Assembly (NCBI GenBank): GCA_029570205.1
Contig: JAKQSI010000073.1
Coordinates: 1 to 47,281, forward strand
Length of the DNA: 47,281 bases
Direction of reading: 5' to 3'
Origin: Candidatus Omnitrophota bacterium
GTDB lineage: Bacteria; Hinthialibacterota; Hinthialibacteria; Hinthialibacterales; JAKPRU01
Shown in pieces: positions 17 to 47,281 of the stretch (positions are counted from its first letter, which is position 1; every line of letters begins with the position of its first letter). The notes beneath the pieces were generated by a model, which saw only the letters and a list, made by a program, of their open reading frames with translations, was not told where the DNA came from and did no database searches. Made by a program: the position numbers and the translations under genes.

Positions 17-133
17 GGTATCTAGTTATATCACTAGATCCCAGGATACACCGAAAACCGGGCGAAATCAAGCAAAAATTTCACCCGATGTAATTTTCAG
101 TCCGTTTTCTCTAGTAAAAGGCCAAACTCCAGC

Positions 134-391: not shown

Positions 392-1816
392 ATGGATCGA
401 CCCGATTTTGTCAGGCAATCCCGCCGTCGTTTTCTGCAAAATGCCTCAGCGGCGATGCTGGGCGCAGCCGCGATGCCCATTTCGTGCAATAGCAAGTCTG
501 GACGGCTCAACCTGATTGTTCTGGTTACCGATGACCACCGCTGGGATTGCCTTGGATGTATGGGCCACCCCATTTTGCGCACACCAATCCTGGACCGCCT
601 TGCCCATGACGGTGTCCTGTTCACCAACCATTTCTGCACGACCTCCATCTGCATGACCAGCCGGGCTACGATTTTCACCGGCCTGTATTCCCGCTGCCAT
701 ACTGTCCACGATTTCAATCGGCCCCTGCCGGAATGTCTGTTCCCGGTGTCTTACCCGATGGCCCTTCGCCGTGCGGGATATCGAACGGGATTTGTCGGGA
801 AATGGGGGTTGGGCGGAGACCTTCCCGAAAAGGATTTCGATTATTTCAAAGGATTTCCCGGCCAGGGGCAGTATTTTCACGAAATCGACGGCCGGCGAGT
901 TCATTTAACCCGCATCCTGACCGACCAGGCCGAGGAGTTCCTTCGGGGCTGCTCCCCCAATCAGCCGTTCTGTCTGTCGGTGAGTTTCAAAGCCCCGCAC
1001 GTGCAGGATGGCGAATTCCCGCCGTTTCAGTATGACCCTGCCTTGGCGGATCTGTATGAAAATGACCGGATTCCTGTCCCGCAAACGGCCACGGAGGCGC
1101 ATTTTGCGGCGCTACCCGAATTTCTGCAGAAATCCGAGGGCCGGGTACGCTGGGGGCAGCGGTTCGCCACGCCGGACATGTACCAGGACTCGGTGAAAGG
1201 GTATCTGCGCTTGATTACCGGTGTGGACCGCGCGGTCGGGGAGATACTGAAATGCCTGGAACAGCAAAGCGCGCTCGACCGCACGGCGATTCTTTTCACA
1301 TCCGATAACGGCTTCTTCCTGGGCGAACACGGCCTTGCGGGCAAGTGGCTGATGTATGAGGAATCCATCCGTATCCCGATGATTCTGTGGCATCCATGTT
1401 TTCCCCCGTCTCAACGGGGACAGAAAATCGATAAAATGACATTGAATATCGACATCGCCCCGACCATCCTGGACCTTGCCGGGCTGGAGGCTCCGTCTTG
1501 GATGCAGGGGCGAAGCCTGATGCCGCTCGCATCCGGCAAGTCTGTTCCCTGGCGGCAGGAATGGTTCTATGAGCATCTGTTCACACATCCCGCAATTCCG
1601 AAGAATGAGGGGGTGCGGACGGAACGCTGGAAATACATTCGTTATATTGAGCAGGACCCGATTTACGAAGAACTGTATGATCTGGAGAATGATCCGGTAG
1701 AGGAACACAACCTGGTTGGAATCTCTTCTCATTTGCAGATTCTCGACGGGCTGCGGGCGCGACGAGAGAAATGGATTCAATCGTTAGACAATTGGAAGTT
1801 AGAGAGTCCGAGATGA
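392..1816 (+). CDS. Tat-exported arylsulfatase (sulfatase family S1)
   Basis: Hydrolyses sulfate esters, probably on sulfated polysaccharides, outside the cytoplasm. The ATG at 392 is chosen because AAAAGGAGAG precedes it by 6-7 bases and the protein then opens with a twin-arginine signal (QSRRRFLQ, residues about 9-16) and a hydrophobic Ala-rich stretch. The protein has 474 residues, normal for the family. The N-terminal metal-binding Asp pair is in VTDDHR (47-48). The formylglycine signature is ICMTSRATIFTGLYS, with Cys87 the residue to be oxidised; Thr replaces the usual Pro or Ala of CxPSR, which some sulfatases tolerate. DNGFFLGEHGLAGKW is the second conserved block. Activity needs a formylglycine-generating or anSME-type maturase, and neither is in the window. 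The substrate cannot be read from the sequence. Confidence 0.9.
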   Translation: MDRPDFVRQSRRRFLQNASAAMLGAAAMPISCNSKSGRLNLIVLVTDDHRWDCLGCMGHPILRTPILDRLAHDGVLFTNHFCTTSICMTSRATIFTGLYSRCHTVHDFNRPLPECLFPVSYPMALRRAGYRTGFVGKWGLGGDLPEKDFDYFKGFPGQGQYFHEIDGRRVHLTRILTDQAEEFLRGCSPNQPFCLSVSFKAPHVQDGEFPPFQYDPALADLYENDRIPVPQTATEAHFAALPEFLQKSEGRVRWGQRFATPDMYQDSVKGYLRLITGVDRAVGEILKCLEQQSALDRTAILFTSDNGFFLGEHGLAGKWLMYEESIRIPMILWHPCFPPSQRGQKIDKMTLNIDIAPTILDLAGLEAPSWMQGRSLMPLASGKSVPWRQEWFYEHLFTHPAIPKNEGVRTERWKYIRYIEQDPIYEELYDLENDPVEEHNLVGISSHLQILDGLRARREKWIQSLDNWKLESPR

Positions 1817-1931
1817 GACACTGTGACAAACACCTTTCTTATACGCCCGGATATTGATAGCCTCAAGAAAAGGATGTAACAAATACCGGTGGTCCCTCGG
1901 AGAAGGTCGCTTATTCTTGGGAGGATGCACT

Positions 1932-2864
1932 ATGATTGGACAAGAGACAATCCCACCGATGATCTTAAAAGGGCACGATCTCCACGGAAAATGCCTTCCG
2001 ATCAAATATGATCGCACTTGCCGATGCCCACCGACACATATTAATTGCATGACACCGAAGGATTGGCTGAAGAGTCAGCTGGGTATCTGGCAGTTTTCCT
2101 ACGAGGGCAGGGATGTTCGCGATAAGACTGTTCACCCGGCCACATTTCCCATTGCTTTGGCAAAGAAGGTCATTGAACTGTTTACGCATGAAGGCCAGTT
2201 GGTCTTGGACCCTTTTGTCGGAAGCGGTACAAGTCTTCTTGCGGCGAGCGATTTAAATCGAAATGCCGTGGGTTTTGACCTTCACAAACACTATGTCCAA
2301 TTGTGCGCAAGCAGGTTGTCCAAGAACGGTAATATGTTTAATTATTCAAAACAGGTAGCGGTAGAGGACGACGCGCGGAATATCCCGAATTATCTCCAAA
2401 AAGAATCGGTTTCACTCATTTGGACATCCCCCCCTTATGCACACCTTCTAAATCGAAAGCGAAGCAATAAGTCGCGGAGAAATCGAAATAACGAACAGCT
2501 GGGCAAAGTGGAGCAATATTCACAAGACGAACGAGATTTAGGCGTATTGGATCTCCCAAGTTATACGACAGCCATGGGCGACATCTTCGAGGGATTGTTG
2601 CTGTTTCTGAAGCCCAAGGGGCACTGTGTTATCAATGTCCCCGATATATGGTGGGAAAATGAGAGGATCACGATACACATTTCCCTTGTTGAAGAAATGA
2701 GAAAACGTGGATACGAATTGCGCAATATCATTATTTGGGACAGAACAAATGTCGTGAACCAAATCGGCATCTTTGGATGGCCCAGTAACTACATCACAAT
2801 GGGTGTGACCTTTGAGTATCTACTTGATTTTTGGCGACCGCTGCCGAGTGAGAGAAATCTGTAA
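1932..2864 (+). CDS. Orphan site-specific DNA methyltransferase (N4-cytosine/N6-adenine type)
   Basis: Transfers a methyl group from S-adenosylmethionine to an exocyclic amine of A or C in DNA. The start at 1932 follows GGGAGGA. In this 310-residue protein, HPATFP (68-73, motif X-like) is followed by the SAM-binding DPFVGSGT (93-100, motif I) and then by the catalytic TSPPY (165-169, motif IV). The order X-I-IV is the alpha/gamma type and not the beta order (IV first) common for TSPPY enzymes. No restriction endonuclease gene lies beside it, so it is an orphan methylase or the remnant of a restriction-modification system. The gene looks A+T-richer than its neighbours and borders an insertion sequence, which suggests horizontal acquisition. 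The recognition sequence is unknown. Confidence 0.85.
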   Translation: MIGQETIPPMILKGHDLHGKCLPIKYDRTCRCPPTHINCMTPKDWLKSQLGIWQFSYEGRDVRDKTVHPATFPIALAKKVIELFTHEGQLVLDPFVGSGTSLLAASDLNRNAVGFDLHKHYVQLCASRLSKNGNMFNYSKQVAVEDDARNIPNYLQKESVSLIWTSPPYAHLLNRKRSNKSRRNRNNEQLGKVEQYSQDERDLGVLDLPSYTTAMGDIFEGLLLFLKPKGHCVINVPDIWWENERITIHISLVEEMRKRGYELRNIIIWDRTNVVNQIGIFGWPSNYITMGVTFEYLLDFWRPLPSERNL

Positions 2865-5050: not shown

Positions 5051-5845
5051 TTACCAGATCACCCGTTCGCTTGAGGGTTTTCTCGCCGGAATCTCCATTT
5101 GCCTGACAAGGCGGGCCAAACCAAATCCCGACGGTTGATAAAGCTCCTTCGATTTGCACCAATCGAAATACTGACACGTATCCGAACTCTCATCGAAATC
5201 ATTCACACAAAGATCCAGACCGATTTCGATTCCCTTATCCAATTCCGACACGCCCAAGTCGGTCCAGGGAACGGCCATTTCGGTTATGTATCCCTCATCC
5301 GGCTGGTCATCGTTCAGAGTTCCGGCGATCACGGTCTTGGAAAGCGCGTTCCCGTTCCATGAATTGTCGATCTTGCCGTCCGATGTGCCCCGACTATCAA
5401 GGATTGCATTGTTCAGATTGACATGCCAACAATAGTCATCCTGTAGCCATTTGTCGCTGCGATCCAATCGAGTATCGATCAGGATTTCTACCCCATCATC
5501 GCCGGGAAATGCCGTATCATGTTCCGTGTGCGTGGCGCGAAGGTATGAATCCTTAACAGAAAAGGCAAAATAAAGGTATTGCTTGTCCCACAGTACCCAT
5601 ACCCGTGCCGTATTGCGATTCGGCGGGTCGATGTCATCCATGAAAAACACCGGCTGCGCGTTCTGCCAGGACACCTCATCCATGATACCATCCACGCGGA
5701 TTGCCTCCGGTGTATAGGCCACTTCCATTACACAGGGCCATGGGGCAATCGCCATCCTCTCCAGCGGCTCCGAGGTCCGGCAGCCGGTGACGGCTGTCAA
5801 CATCAGTAAGGTAACCGATAGGATGACCGCATGTTGTCTACGCAT
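5051..5845 (-). CDS. CBM9-like carbohydrate-binding lipoprotein
   Basis: A predicted outer-surface lipoprotein of 264 residues. The start at 5845 is preferred because the protein then begins with a lipoprotein signal (MRRQHAVILSVTLLMLTAV) ending in the lipobox VTGC, with GGAGG upstream. A longer in-frame start would add a basic stretch with no signal. The mature part resembles carbohydrate-binding module family 9: AIRVDGIMDEVSWQNAQPV near the start, WVLWDKQYLYFAFSVKD, the GDDGVEILID strand, then EMAVPWTDLG. Such modules are usually attached to hydrolases, but here the module stands alone. It probably tethers or senses glycans and fits the other glycan genes of the window. It is the last gene of a minus-strand run with prs and ackA, 155 bases after prs. 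Confidence 0.75.
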   Translation of the reverse strand: MRRQHAVILSVTLLMLTAVTGCRTSEPLERMAIAPWPCVMEVAYTPEAIRVDGIMDEVSWQNAQPVFFMDDIDPPNRNTARVWVLWDKQYLYFAFSVKDSYLRATHTEHDTAFPGDDGVEILIDTRLDRSDKWLQDDYCWHVNLNNAILDSRGTSDGKIDNSWNGNALSKTVIAGTLNDDQPDEGYITEMAVPWTDLGVSELDKGIEIGLDLCVNDFDESSDTCQYFDWCKSKELYQPSGFGLARLVRQMEIPARKPSSERVIW

Positions 5846-43884: not shown

Positions 43885-45432
43885 ATGATGAGACTTCTGA
43901 AAACATTGGGATTGATCGCTTTGTGCGCCATGGTTGTAACGCCTGCGTTCTGCCAGACCCGCAATGTCAATCCGCAGGCTGTCGAGATCGAGGTATTGAT
44001 CCCCGACACGCCGATGGGGCTGCTGGGTGTGGATTACGCGGCAAACCTGGAACCTTATGTGGATTGCATGGGCGACGGTACGTTGATTGCAGCCTACGGT
44101 ACGAAAGATATCGACGGGAACGACTCCACCGAACGTCCCGCTATGCTCTTAGTCAAGCCGGACGGAACAATCATCGAAGCCGCCGGTTTCTACACGGACA
44201 AAGGGGAACCGTGGCTCTGGAACTGTGACACCTGGCGCCAGGATGGTAACCCGCCTCAGTGCGCCGGGATCCGGACTCCGGGAGCCACTCGCTACGCGAT
44301 CGGCATCGAAAGCACACCGTACAACGTCTCCGACGATTTCAATACCGACGGTCGGTGGAACAAACACACTTATTCGGATCACTTTTATTGCATCCAGGTT
44401 TTCGACCTGACCCCAAATGGCGTGGTTCCGGTCACGAAAGTCCTCGATGTCTTTTACAGCAAAGTTGATGACGAACTGTACCTTGGCAAAGGTCGTTGCG
44501 GTGGTGTCGCAGGCCTTGACAATGGGAACTTCGCGGCTGTCCTCGAAGACCGATCCGCAGCCGGGACGGTCTTCTCCTCCTTCAACAAGGCCCCCATTCT
44601 GTCCATTTTTAATGGACAGACGGGTGAAATTATCAAAGGCCCCTTCTTCCCTGGCGACGAAGATGCGAATCAGGACGGCTGGGACGGGATCACCTCCATG
44701 AAGGGCGGGTTTGCCTTCCGTCGCAGCGGCAGTGTCAAAATCTACTTCTATGACAATGCCGGGACCCTGCTGGGAGAGTGGACTCAGACTTCCAACGACA
44801 ACCCGGATAACATTCCGTTGACCAGTTTCACCGACTTCACCACATCCATCACTGGAACAGGCCGTGGTGACGGTTGCCACGTCTCCGCTTCCATCAACAG
44901 CAAATATGTGTACTATGCCAACAAGGGACTGGATGTTGATGGCGCGAGCAACTTCGTTTACCTGGTGAAGATTGACAGCACGACCGGAAAAACGGTCAAG
45001 GAAGTCATCGTGAACGAAGTGATGAACCTCGCAAGCGGTTACTCAAGCGGCGAGTACGAAAACTGGGCGCTTCCTGAGCGTGTGAGCTGCTATGTGGACG
45101 GTCGGGATAATGTGACTGTGGTGTATTCCGATACATCAAACGATGAAGTCGTTAAAGTCATTGGCCGTGTGTACAACAGTGACCTCACCCCAGTGACCGA
45201 GACCTTCATGTGCTTCCAGGCCAGTGATATCGACGGAACCACCTCGTTCGCCGATAACAAGATCTATCATGCCCAGGTTGCTATGACGGATGAGAGAATC
45301 CTGGTTACGGCACGGACTGAGAATTTCCTCATGCCGGATGGCGAGACAGCTTTGCCGCTGAACCAGCCTATCTTCACCGTGTTGAAGAACCCCTTGGCTC
45401 CGGTTGCCGTTCAGGATTGGAGTCTGTACTGA
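43885..45432 (+). CDS. Unknown secreted protein
   Basis: 515 residues with a clear Sec signal peptide (MMRLLKTLGLIALCAMVVTP, AFC, cleavage near 24); AAAAAGGAG precedes the ATGATG, and either ATG may be used. The mature chain is rich in Asp, Gly, Thr and Asn, with repeated strand-like blocks such as LLVKPDGTIIEAAGFYTDKG, ILSIFNGQTGEIIKGPFFPG, FVYLVKIDSTTGKTVKEVIV and VYNSDLTPVTETFMCFQASD, suggesting a beta-propeller or similar all-beta fold. DEDANQDGWDG looks like a calcium-binding loop. No catalytic motif is recognised. It has a strong terminator and its own promoter, so it is a single-gene unit, possibly an abundant surface or extracellular protein. Confidence 0.8.
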   Translation: MMRLLKTLGLIALCAMVVTPAFCQTRNVNPQAVEIEVLIPDTPMGLLGVDYAANLEPYVDCMGDGTLIAAYGTKDIDGNDSTERPAMLLVKPDGTIIEAAGFYTDKGEPWLWNCDTWRQDGNPPQCAGIRTPGATRYAIGIESTPYNVSDDFNTDGRWNKHTYSDHFYCIQVFDLTPNGVVPVTKVLDVFYSKVDDELYLGKGRCGGVAGLDNGNFAAVLEDRSAAGTVFSSFNKAPILSIFNGQTGEIIKGPFFPGDEDANQDGWDGITSMKGGFAFRRSGSVKIYFYDNAGTLLGEWTQTSNDNPDNIPLTSFTDFTTSITGTGRGDGCHVSASINSKYVYYANKGLDVDGASNFVYLVKIDSTTGKTVKEVIVNEVMNLASGYSSGEYENWALPERVSCYVDGRDNVTVVYSDTSNDEVVKVIGRVYNSDLTPVTETFMCFQASDIDGTTSFADNKIYHAQVAMTDERILVTARTENFLMPDGETALPLNQPIFTVLKNPLAPVAVQDWSLY

Positions 45433-45508: not shown

Positions 45509-46015
45509 GTAGGTCAGGCCTCCGTGCCTGTCGCCGTATGAATACAGTAGGACAGGCCTCCGTGCCTGTCACCGCATGAATACAGTAGGACAGGCCTCCG
45601 TGCCTGTCACCGTATGAATACAGTAGGACAGGCCTCCGTGCCTGTCACCGTATGAATACAGTAGGACAGGCCTCCGTGCCTGTCACCGTATGAATACAGT
45701 AGGACAGGCCTCCGTGCCTGTCACGTGCCTGTCACCGCACGAATACAGTAGGACAGGCCTCCGTGCCTGTCACCGCACGAACACAGTAGGACAGGCCTCC
45801 GTGCCTGTCACGTGCCTGTCACCGCACGAATACAGTAGGACAGGCCTCCGTGCCTGTCACCGCATGAATACAGTAGGACAGGCCTCCGTGCCTGTCGCCG
45901 TATGAATACAGTAGGACAGGCCTCCGTGCCTGTCATCCCGCGTTCTCCCGCCAGCTGTCAGGCAGAGACGCCTGACCTACTCACGAATACAGTAGGACAG
46001 GCCTCCGTGCCTGTC
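45509..46015 (+). repeat. REP array, left side of the RAYT gene (12 copies)
   Basis: Twelve copies of a 38-bp unit start at 45509, 45547, 45585, 45623, 45661, 45699, 45748, 45786, 45835, 45873, 45911 and 45992. Each unit is GTAG, then GACAGGCCTCCGTGCCTGTC (7-bp stem, 6-base loop), then a 14-base linker ACCGYRYGAAYACA. Two copies carry an 11-bp tandem duplication of the right arm (45723-45733, 45810-45820). The first copy has GTCAGGC in the left arm. The gap before the twelfth copy holds an inverted REP. GTAG plus palindrome is the known layout of REP elements. There are no spacers, so it is not CRISPR. Confidence 0.93.
45957..45980 (-). repeat. Inverted partner REP (left flank)
   Basis: On the minus strand it reads GTAG, then GTCAGGC-GTCTCT-GCCTGAC, again a 7-6-7 hairpin but with a different loop. 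It belongs to a 57-bp block (45925-45981) repeated exactly at 46851-46907. Opposed REPs of this sort form BIME-like units. Confidence 0.88.
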
Positions 46016-46526
46016 AGATCTTTTCCATCTTCTCCCATTGAGGAAATCCCATCCACTCATACTCCATCAGATCCGGCCAGCGTCTGAATGGATTCTTGGA
46101 GATATATTGAGCTTTCTCGTCGTATTCTGTTTCGTCTCGGATAATGCGATCAAAAGACTCAGCCTGCCAAACCACCCCTTGCCTTTTGTGCTGTTGTTGG
46201 AGCTCGTGTGCTGTGAATGATTTCCAGGAATGCAGAATACCTGACAGATTCTGTCCGGATGCCGGTTCGACAATTACATGCACATGATCATCCATGACAA
46301 CGTAAGCGTGTAACGAGTATCGAACGCCATCAAAGTGACGTAAGGCGTCCGCCACGAGACGGCGTTCCACAGGTTCCAGAGTCATTTGCCTTTGATGCAA
46401 CCGCCATGTCAGAAAATAGATTGAATCCCCCATCCGCCAGTGAGGCAATTTCCGCCGGTAGATTGAGAAGGCTTCTGGTGAGTGAGAACTCGGTACTTCT
46501 TTGACAGATGAAGAACGGTCCTGCAT
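46014..46526 (-). CDS. REP-associated tyrosine transposase (RAYT, TnpA-REP)
   Basis: A Y1 HUH-type single-strand transposase of 170 residues, normal for the family. ATG 46526 is preceded by AAGGAAAG. Opening PHWRMGDSIYFLTWRLHQR; the HUH metal motif is VVMDDHVHVIVEP with His81 and His83; the catalytic Tyr141 is in AQYISKNPFRRW. ILHSWKSFTAHELQQQ and WQAESFDRIIRDETEYDE complete the family pattern. RAYTs bind the GTAG and hairpin of REP elements and are thought to have spread them. The TGA stop (46016-46014) overlaps the palindrome of the adjacent REP copy by two bases, and the first REP of the right array starts 34 bases upstream of the ATG. Motifs are intact, so the protein may be active. Confidence 0.95.
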   Translation of the reverse strand: MQDRSSSVKEVPSSHSPEAFSIYRRKLPHWRMGDSIYFLTWRLHQRQMTLEPVERRLVADALRHFDGVRYSLHAYVVMDDHVHVIVEPASGQNLSGILHSWKSFTAHELQQQHKRQGVVWQAESFDRIIRDETEYDEKAQYISKNPFRRWPDLMEYEWMGFPQWEKMEKI

Positions 46527-46559
46527 TGGTTGTCTTTCCTTGCCAGCTGACTGCCAGGA

Positions 46560-46860
46560 GTAGGACAGGCCTCCGTGCCTGTCACCGCACGAATACAGTA
46601 GGACAGGCCTCCGTGCCTGTCACCGTATGAATACAGTAGGACAGGCCTCCGTGCCTGTCACCGCATGAATACAGTAGGACAGGCCTCCGTGCCTGTCACC
46701 GCATGAACACAGTAGGACAGGCCTCCGTGCCTGTCACCGCATGAATACAGTAGGACAGGCCTCCGTGCCTGTCACCGTATGAATACAGTAGGACAGGCCT
46801 CCGTGCCTGTCACCGCATGAATACAGTAGGACAGGCCTCCGTGCCTGTCACGTGCCTGTC
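46560..46860 (+). repeat. REP array, right side of the RAYT gene (8 copies)
   Basis: Eight copies of the same 38-bp unit start at 46560, 46598, 46636, 46674, 46712, 46750, 46788 and 46826, with perfect spacing. The last copy is followed by the same 11-bp arm duplication (46850-46860) found in the left array, then by the shared 57-bp block. All units point the same way as in the left array, opposite to the RAYT gene. Confidence 0.93.
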
Positions 46861-46882
46861 ATCCCGCGTTCTCCCGCCAGCT

Positions 46883-46906
46883 GTCAGGCAGAGACGCCTG
46901 ACCTAC
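46883..46906 (-). repeat. Inverted partner REP (right flank)
   Basis: Identical to the element at 45957-45980. Its GTAG supplies the TAG stop codon of the permease gene that ends at 46903. Confidence 0.88.
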
Positions 46907-47281
46907 TGGAGTTGCTTTAAATACAATTCTCGAACGAGCACGCGAACAACACACGCTGCGGGAACGGCGATCAGCATCCCTAACATTCCACCAAGACTGC
47001 CTCCCAGCATCAGCGCAAACAAAATCACCATGGGGTGCAAATGCACGGCCTCACTCATCACCCTCGGACTGATTACAAACCCCTCCAGCATCTGCACCGT
47101 CGCATACACAATGCCCACCCAGAAAAGCTGCCAGGCTACCGCCCCAAGTCCGAACGCATATTGCTCCACAACCGTGCTGCCCACCGCCGGAATCAGGCCC
47201 ATGATCGGCCCCAGGTACGGAATGATATTGCAGGCTCCCGCAAACAGGCCGATCAGAATCCCCGAATCCACACCCGCAATG
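46903..47281 (-). CDS. PerM/AI-2E-family membrane permease, C-terminal part (start outside window)
   Basis: About 126 residues of the C-terminal end; the frame stays open to the right edge (IAGVDSGILIGLF). The conserved end of the PerM (DUF20, AI-2E transporter-like) family is recognised: GACNIIPYLGPIMGLIPAVG, LFWVGIVYATVQMLEGFVIS, PRVMSEAVHLHPMVILFALM and LGGSLGGMLGMLIAVPAACV. Members are eight-helix inner-membrane proteins implicated in small-molecule or ion export; the substrate here is unknown. The last codon runs into the GTAG of an inverted REP, which provides the stop. Confidence 0.88.
   Translation of the reverse strand, partial: IAGVDSGILIGLFAGACNIIPYLGPIMGLIPAVGSTVVEQYAFGLGAVAWQLFWVGIVYATVQMLEGFVISPRVMSEAVHLHPMVILFALMLGGSLGGMLGMLIAVPAACVVRVLVRELYLKQLQ

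Follow-up and report, generated by a model that had tools for sequence, protein, structure and literature searches.

The stretch of DNA analysed here, referred to as the window, is a whole contig (C89) of 47,281 nucleotides from a draft genome of a Candidatus Omnitrophota bacterium (G000; 4.39 Mb, 131 contigs, 93% complete). Near its right end, a gene for a predicted REP-associated tyrosine transposase (RAYT) is located between two arrays of GTAG-hairpin units (REPs). The locus is compared across three genomes of one genus, namely G000, which holds the window, G001, and G002. The features are as follows.

43885..45432 (+): gene for a 515-aa protein without a Pfam match; left syntenic neighbour in all three genomes
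45509..45934 (+): left REP array, 11 direct head-to-tail units GTAGGACAGGCCTCCGTGCCTGTC; period 38 bp, two units of 49 bp
45957..45980 (-): inverted REP of a second loop type (GTAGGTCAGGCGTCTCTGCCTGAC) in the block that ends the left array; has a counterpart in G002
45992..46015 (+): twelfth direct REP; its last two bases lie within the RAYT stop codon
46014..46526 (-): gene for the predicted RAYT / TnpA-REP of 170 aa; HUH motif H81-V-H83, WQ at 120-121, catalytic-type Tyr141 in YISKNP
46560..46849 (+): right REP array, 8 direct units, all 38 bp apart; same linker family as in the left array
46850..46882 (+): 11-bp arm duplication and block CATCCCGCGTTCTCCCGCCAGCT, the latter common to the end of the left array
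46883..46906 (-): another inverted REP of the second loop type, with the same sequence as 45957-45980
46903..47271 (-): 3' part of an AI-2E family transporter gene; right syntenic neighbour in all three genomes

The hairpin of the arrays consists of a 7-bp stem and a 6-nt loop (GACAGGC-ctccgt-GCCTGTC), and the stem stands directly at GTAG. When folded as DNA, the GTAG strand has an energy of -6.8 kcal/mol (z -3.4). The flanking REPs have one orientation on both sides of the RAYT, and each array is closed by one inverted REP of the second type. The cores are identical in 19 of the 20 units of both arrays, and the 38-bp unit otherwise varies at four linker positions only (mean pairwise identity 96%). 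The earlier note had counted 12 + 8 = 20 GTAG-hairpin units around the RAYT, and this count is correct. The strict 38-bp unit that it described holds for most spacings, but not for three units (45699-45747, 45786-45834, and 46826-46860) in which 11 bp of the 3' arm (CGTGCCTGTCA) are duplicated. Its 20-base palindrome is not continuous, since the loop separates the two arms. A similar 11-bp arm duplication is found at the orthologous place in G002 (L074, about 5618-5660). Such a duplication is possibly the mark of template switching at the hairpin. Several units together form a higher-order repeat with an 87-bp period in the arrays of the window. A CRISPR reading of the arrays was discarded because the spacers between the repeats are constant. 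Elevated deamination (C to T in single strands) was also considered as the origin of the unit variants; transitions account for 50 of 60 variable columns, compared with 31 of 45 between species, and the difference is not significant (P 0.10).

The RAYT reading frame is uninterrupted, with both the HUH motif and Tyr141 present, in agreement with the earlier description of an intact HUH/Y1 RAYT. The protein matches PF01797 in Pfam and scores 86.6 bits against NF047646 ('REP-associated tyrosine transposase', cut-off 80). A phmmer search of the PDB gave a weak match (E 0.033) to 4er8, which is the E. coli TnpA-REP bound to a REP hairpin. In a Foldseek search with the AlphaFold model, which is of moderate quality (pLDDT 71) and well ordered over residues 30-145, the best PDB match was again 4er8 (E 5e-7), followed by the ISDra2 and IS608 transposases. 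The fold search settles the structural identity. The class motifs are DHVH at 80-83 and YISKNP at 141, the latter providing one tyrosine in a Y---NP context. In an alignment with 21 relatives, H81, H83, W120, and R130 are kept, and Y141 is nearly always kept. The GTAG-contact positions W94, Q95, E/D100, H/R101, and R104 (E. coli numbering) correspond to W120, Q121, D126, R127, and R130, as assigned by eye from the 4er8 alignment and the alignment of the relatives. The D and R variants of the contact residues are listed for subclasses 2.5 and 2.7 (PMC6006769). Judged by its sequence and modelled fold, the protein is a RAYT / TnpA-REP (TnpA-Y1 Class 2).

This RAYT is present in a single copy in the genome, and its G002 orthologue (88-90% identity) keeps the syntenic position. 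Ka/Ks against this orthologue is 0.34, compared with 0.17 for each neighbouring gene, and these substitution ratios show the RAYT to be under purifying selection. The single copy, the synteny, and the Ka/Ks value together indicate a maintained, non-multiplying gene, as is known for RAYTs. An active IS200/IS605 element would be expected to have several near-identical copies and to move together with its ends, and was rejected in view of the one copy and its unchanged place in G002.

A genome-wide search, proposed in the earlier note, finds the palindrome to be abundant. The array core has 261 copies at up to 2 mismatches, while a backward control pattern has 0, and the wider REP family pattern gives 442 matches (about 440). 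The second stem pair (6/23) is complementary in 168 of 173 copies sampled from loci of the same genome, and the stem is therefore maintained. The pair is mostly A-T and C-G with a few T-A, and a few G-C are seen among the copies of the 1.18-Mb scan described below. With GTAG at the foot of the stem, a stem length within the 6-13 bp of the family, a high copy number, and compensatory changes, the repeats fit the GTAG REP family. The scan covered 1.18 Mb, sampled as nearly whole contigs chosen among those known to carry REPs; it found about 177 REPs in 42 clusters, ranging from single copies to 18, and its fuzzy matching may have misplaced or overlooked a small number of degenerate copies. Neighbouring REPs are arranged head-to-tail in 113 cases, tail-to-tail in 16, and head-to-head in 6. 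Isolated doublets are inverted (tail-to-tail) in 8 of 8 cases. The arrays consist of head-to-tail monomers, and a BIME or REPIN, in which alternating or inverted REP pairs form the repeat, was accordingly rejected as the repeated unit.

Two further Y1 genes were considered as suppliers of the array REPs and rejected; none of this REP type are nearby, and these genes have repeats of their own. A second RAYT-like gene of the genome (L034, G000:C48:79988-83266; 1330-1932 (-) and 1924-2249) scores 96 bits with NF047646 and contains NHYH and YVHNNP. It is flanked by a different hairpin (GGCGGGAGCTGACGCTCCCGCC), present as an array of 6.8 units of 48 bp on one side and as an inverted pair on the other. 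In a third RAYT-like gene (L223, G000:C126, contig 484-1011), in-frame double-foot palindromes GTAGGGGCACGTTGCAACGTGCCCCTAC separate the HUH part from the Tyr part, a split that has been reported for subclass 2.4 (PMC6006769). An IS200-type transposase gene (67 bits; L032, G000:C51:62120-65452, at 819-1450) is located just downstream of 150-160-bp tandem hairpin repeats.

The linkers of the arrays are informative about how they grew. The 14-bp linker of the window arrays, taken together with GTAGG (CCGYRYGAAYACAGTAGG, one mismatch allowed), has 17 matches in the genome, and 17 of 17 are on this contig, all at this locus; in the sister genomes G001 and G002, the same pattern has no match. About 20 other REP arrays are present in the 1.18 Mb, some of them larger than those of the window (17-18 units at most). 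Their linkers differ from those of the window arrays, and most of them carry a linker of their own, with periods of 25 to 41 bp. Tandem Repeats Finder detects 17 minisatellites of at least 4 units in the 1.18 Mb, comprising 13 REP arrays, 2 arrays of another hairpin, and 2 without a hairpin, one of which is a REP fragment. Since 15 of the 17 are hairpin-based, the formation of arrays is a property of hairpins across the genome, and the RAYT locus is one case among many.

The linkers also resemble the flanks of their own arrays more than those of other arrays. The matching suffix has a mean of 5.75 nt, compared with 1.57 after shuffling (0 of 2000), and the matching prefix 4.9 compared with 1.5; this signal comes partly from degenerate REPs at array ends, and clean cases are few (C95, C79, C117, C113, and C19). 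In the clearest case, C95, the unique 5' flank GCAGAGCTG is found inside the linkers, with 10-11 bp of unique flank per unit. The linker of C79 contains the end of a neighbouring inverted REP, and the linkers of C117 and C113 start with the four bases 3' of the last unit. From private linkers and the capture of own flank, it follows that arrays grow where a REP lands, via tandem duplication of the REP and some of its flank. Such arrays can therefore be read as documenting growth in place rather than export. Some linkers are common to several contigs (C37, C69, C93, C116, and C125; AGCTAA on C19, C20, and C21). Whole array blocks would thus also move or recombine, unless these contigs are pieces of one locus.

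The border between REPs and the surrounding DNA is not random. At 27 of 30 independent REP/non-REP borders, GTAG is directly preceded by a pyrimidine-purine (YR) dinucleotide, against a background of 23.5% (P 2e-14), with CA at 13, TA at 7, TG at 4, and CG at 3. The Marinomonas TnpA-REP cuts at CA, where C pairs with G4 and A with T2 of GTAG (PMC8266576). Allowing for G-T pairs, the dinucleotides that can pair with G4 and T2 are YR. The strict YR|GTAG rule, which is new to us, fits this guide-pairing model of TnpA-REP, and YR directly 5' of GTAG is the predicted cutting site of the window RAYT. The two bases might instead belong to the element. The rule offers a concrete prediction of a cutting site outside Proteobacteria.

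The history of the site can be followed in the sister genomes. In G002, the same RAYT stands at the orthologous position, but the REPs around it are few and their linker is a different one. The outermost left REP of G002 starts at the same base as in the window (TTTTTAACA|GTAGG), and an inverted REP of the second type is preceded by CATCCCG..CAGCT on the same side of the RAYT. Because G002 shares the boundary and the RAYT and lacks the array and its linker, both the RAYT and the inserted outer REP predate the species split, and the arrays arose after it. The recent amplification that the earlier note had read from the high identity of the units is thus borne out by G002. In the window, the CATCCCGCGTTCTCCCGCCAGCT block occurs with an inverted REP on both sides of the RAYT. 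Comparison with G002 suggests that the left block is the original and the right one a copy, presumably made by recombination between REPs.

In G001, searches by protein and by family found no RAYT. The orthologous spacer between the same two neighbouring genes (L227 1247-1500, G001 C257) contains neither a RAYT nor a REP. G001 has 47 REPs of the same types. Head-to-tail pairs within 100 bp number 1 among these 47 copies versus 35 among the 93 copies of G002 (Fisher P 1e-6), as counted by hand and with REP copies that are not independent of each other. To our knowledge, a genome that lacks the RAYT and has 47 REPs with 1 tandem pair is new. The genus forms a small natural experiment, in which two species have the RAYT and many hairpin arrays, while the third combines an empty site and the same REPs with hardly any arrays.

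For more than a decade, the spread of REPs and the role of an apparently tamed transposase in its host have been open questions. We consider it quite probable that the locus is a REPtron, in which a single-copy, maintained Class-2 RAYT is accompanied by its cognate REPs, and that the arrays are a local expansion and not the source of the other REPs. The RAYT probably binds the GTAG-hairpin as single-stranded DNA. It would cut at the YR directly 5' of GTAG, chosen via pairing with T2 and G4, and the cut REPs would be copied to new sites. A landed REP would then be duplicated head-to-tail with a few flank bases, and the resulting array would have a linker private to it. The two arrays of the window may represent one such expansion, partly copied across the RAYT by recombination between REPs. 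The duplication itself would be driven either by slippage or recombination provoked by the hairpin, or by the RAYT.

A rival explanation, growth by slippage alone, has a little less than an even chance. Replication slippage provoked by the hairpin, together with unequal recombination, would enlarge the arrays, and the RAYT would only seed single REPs. This is consistent with the fact that almost only hairpin sequences form arrays, with the 11-bp duplications of one hairpin arm here and in G002, and with the multi-unit repeats of 87-bp period. However, it leaves the lack of tandem pairs among the 47 hairpins of the RAYT-less G001 unexplained.

Array growth may instead depend on the RAYT. Repeated cut-and-join or rolling-circle copying of a REP and its flank, in the way suggested for BIMEs by Nunvar et al., is a tentative explanation with the balance somewhat against it; arrays would then arise at any REP that encounters an active RAYT. 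The contrast in tandem pairs between G002 and G001 points in this direction, as do the YR boundaries and the second RAYT-like gene of the genome, which has another hairpin and is also beside an array. Related RAYT loci from other phyla, 58 in all, contain 16 tandem hairpin repeats in the 111 kb within 1 kb of the RAYT, compared with 5 in the 264 kb beyond 2 kb. On the other hand, the three genomes belong to one genus, so that the pairs are not independent, and REPs are commoner near RAYTs anyway, hence arrays too. Unequal recombination explains the 87-bp higher-order blocks, and REP arrays need not be made by a RAYT. The G001/G002 contrast and the RAYT-proximal arrays fit growth driven by the RAYT, and they also fit slippage on hairpins that the RAYT supplies. 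That the RAYT builds arrays wherever a REP sits, by cutting YR|GTAG and rejoining or copying single strands into head-to-tail hairpin minisatellites, is on the unlikely side. If this were true, the hairpin VNTRs of the genome would be enzyme products, and their growth would stop on loss of the RAYT.

The earlier note had regarded the RAYT locus as a generator or reservoir that exports REPs to the genome. The array beside the RAYT is dense, and its REP core does not differ from that of the dispersed REPs. In addition, a bare 24-nt core carries nothing that reveals its origin, so that export of single cores would go unseen. Nonetheless, the linker of the window arrays is never found elsewhere, the other arrays have their own linkers and capture their own flanks, larger arrays exist at other sites, and the G002 RAYT locus has few REPs in a genome of about 93. 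A reservoir is therefore improbable. An assembly artefact is less probable still: the genome is a draft in which several contigs end inside arrays, but both window arrays are internal to the contig, their ordered linker variants and ordered 38/49-bp spacing are unlike a simple collapse, and REP pairs are found at the same place in the independently assembled G002. Contigs of G000 that end inside or near REP arrays are C1, C16, C19, C21, C69, C79, C113, C116, C117, and C125, and the true array lengths of the genome are therefore underestimated.

Many of the nearest relatives of the RAYT lie, in frame, within long and conserved genes of their hosts, and host domains flank them on both sides. The hosts include ispG (L078, L079, L086, L090, L092, and L102), carB (L096), metH (L093 and L099), valS (L108 and L115), leuS (L083), purH (L126), and dnaE, which encodes DNA polymerase III alpha (L091), as well as type I and MmeI-like restriction genes. 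Further loci with nested RAYTs are L037, L098, L106, L111, L121, L129, and, in G002, C679 (L220). More than 10 host families have Pfam domains on both sides of the nested RAYT, and isolates such as Luteolibacter pohnpeiensis are among the carriers. The interrupted ispG is the only ispG in 4 of 4 genomes checked. Over their length, four IspG-RAYT proteins share 73-77% identity with a fifth; the CPSCG and C-terminal cysteine motifs are kept, and the IspG and RAYT parts are both conserved. Nested RAYTs are flanked by inverted hairpins that are also read in frame. In or near such frames, hairpin arrays occur at L084 (5337-5519), L126 (5350-5441), and L131 (51-242, 789-889, and 1137-1298). Their periods are 42, 33, 51, and 36 bp, all divisible by three, and the reading frame is therefore kept. 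From their sequences, the nested RAYTs would seem either to live in the manner of inteins or to be domain insertions that are tolerated. Intragenic REPs are known (PMC3733652); for nested RAYT genes, we found no account in the literature searched. RAYTs inside essential genes (IspG, CarB, MetH, and ValS) may matter more than the finding on REP arrays.

In comparison with known systems, the locus is an ordinary one of the REPtron type. REPtrons, REP clusters beside RAYTs, and tandem REP arrays are all known already, and the view in the earlier note that REPs normally occur singly or in short BIMEs has to give way to descriptions of tandem arrays and RAYT-side clusters (PMC2613905, PMC3116915, PMC2817692, PMC3733652). 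The REPtrons described by Nunvar (2010, PMC2817692) and Di Nocera (2013, PMC3733652) share with the window a single-copy Y1 HUH gene, REPs on both sides, hundreds of REPs genome-wide, and a REP that overlaps the 3' end of the gene. In these textbook REPtrons, the REPs are inverted, and head-to-tail dimers are said to be rare (PMC2817692, PMC3733652), whereas the REPs of the window form long head-to-tail monomer arrays in one orientation on both sides, a less common arrangement. The SMAG arrays of Stenotrophomonas maltophilia (PMC2613905) are similar in that a 24-bp GTAG hairpin is duplicated with flanking DNA. The flank is 26 bp at one locus, the unit differs per locus, and the copy number varies between strains. 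However, SMAG has another hairpin sequence and belongs to another phylum, and its 12 typed loci are not presented as RAYT loci.

The REPIN clusters of Pseudomonas fluorescens SBW25 (PMC3116915) are also tandem repeats that include flank, and one cluster is located beside each RAYT; the units there are inverted doublets (REPINs), in contrast to the single REPs of the window. In Marinomonas, the REPs of REPtrons Ma and Mb are concentrated around tnpA, and GTAG-chosen cleavage takes place at CA or CT (PMC8266576). REP Mb has a 5-bp stem two bases from GTAG, unlike the window REP with its 7-bp stem directly at GTAG. One third of RAYTs are associated with BIMEs (PMC2817692). BIME-2 at the E. coli RAYT (yafM) likewise forms clusters on both sides of the RAYT, although BIMEs alternate in orientation and the window arrays do not (PMC2817692).
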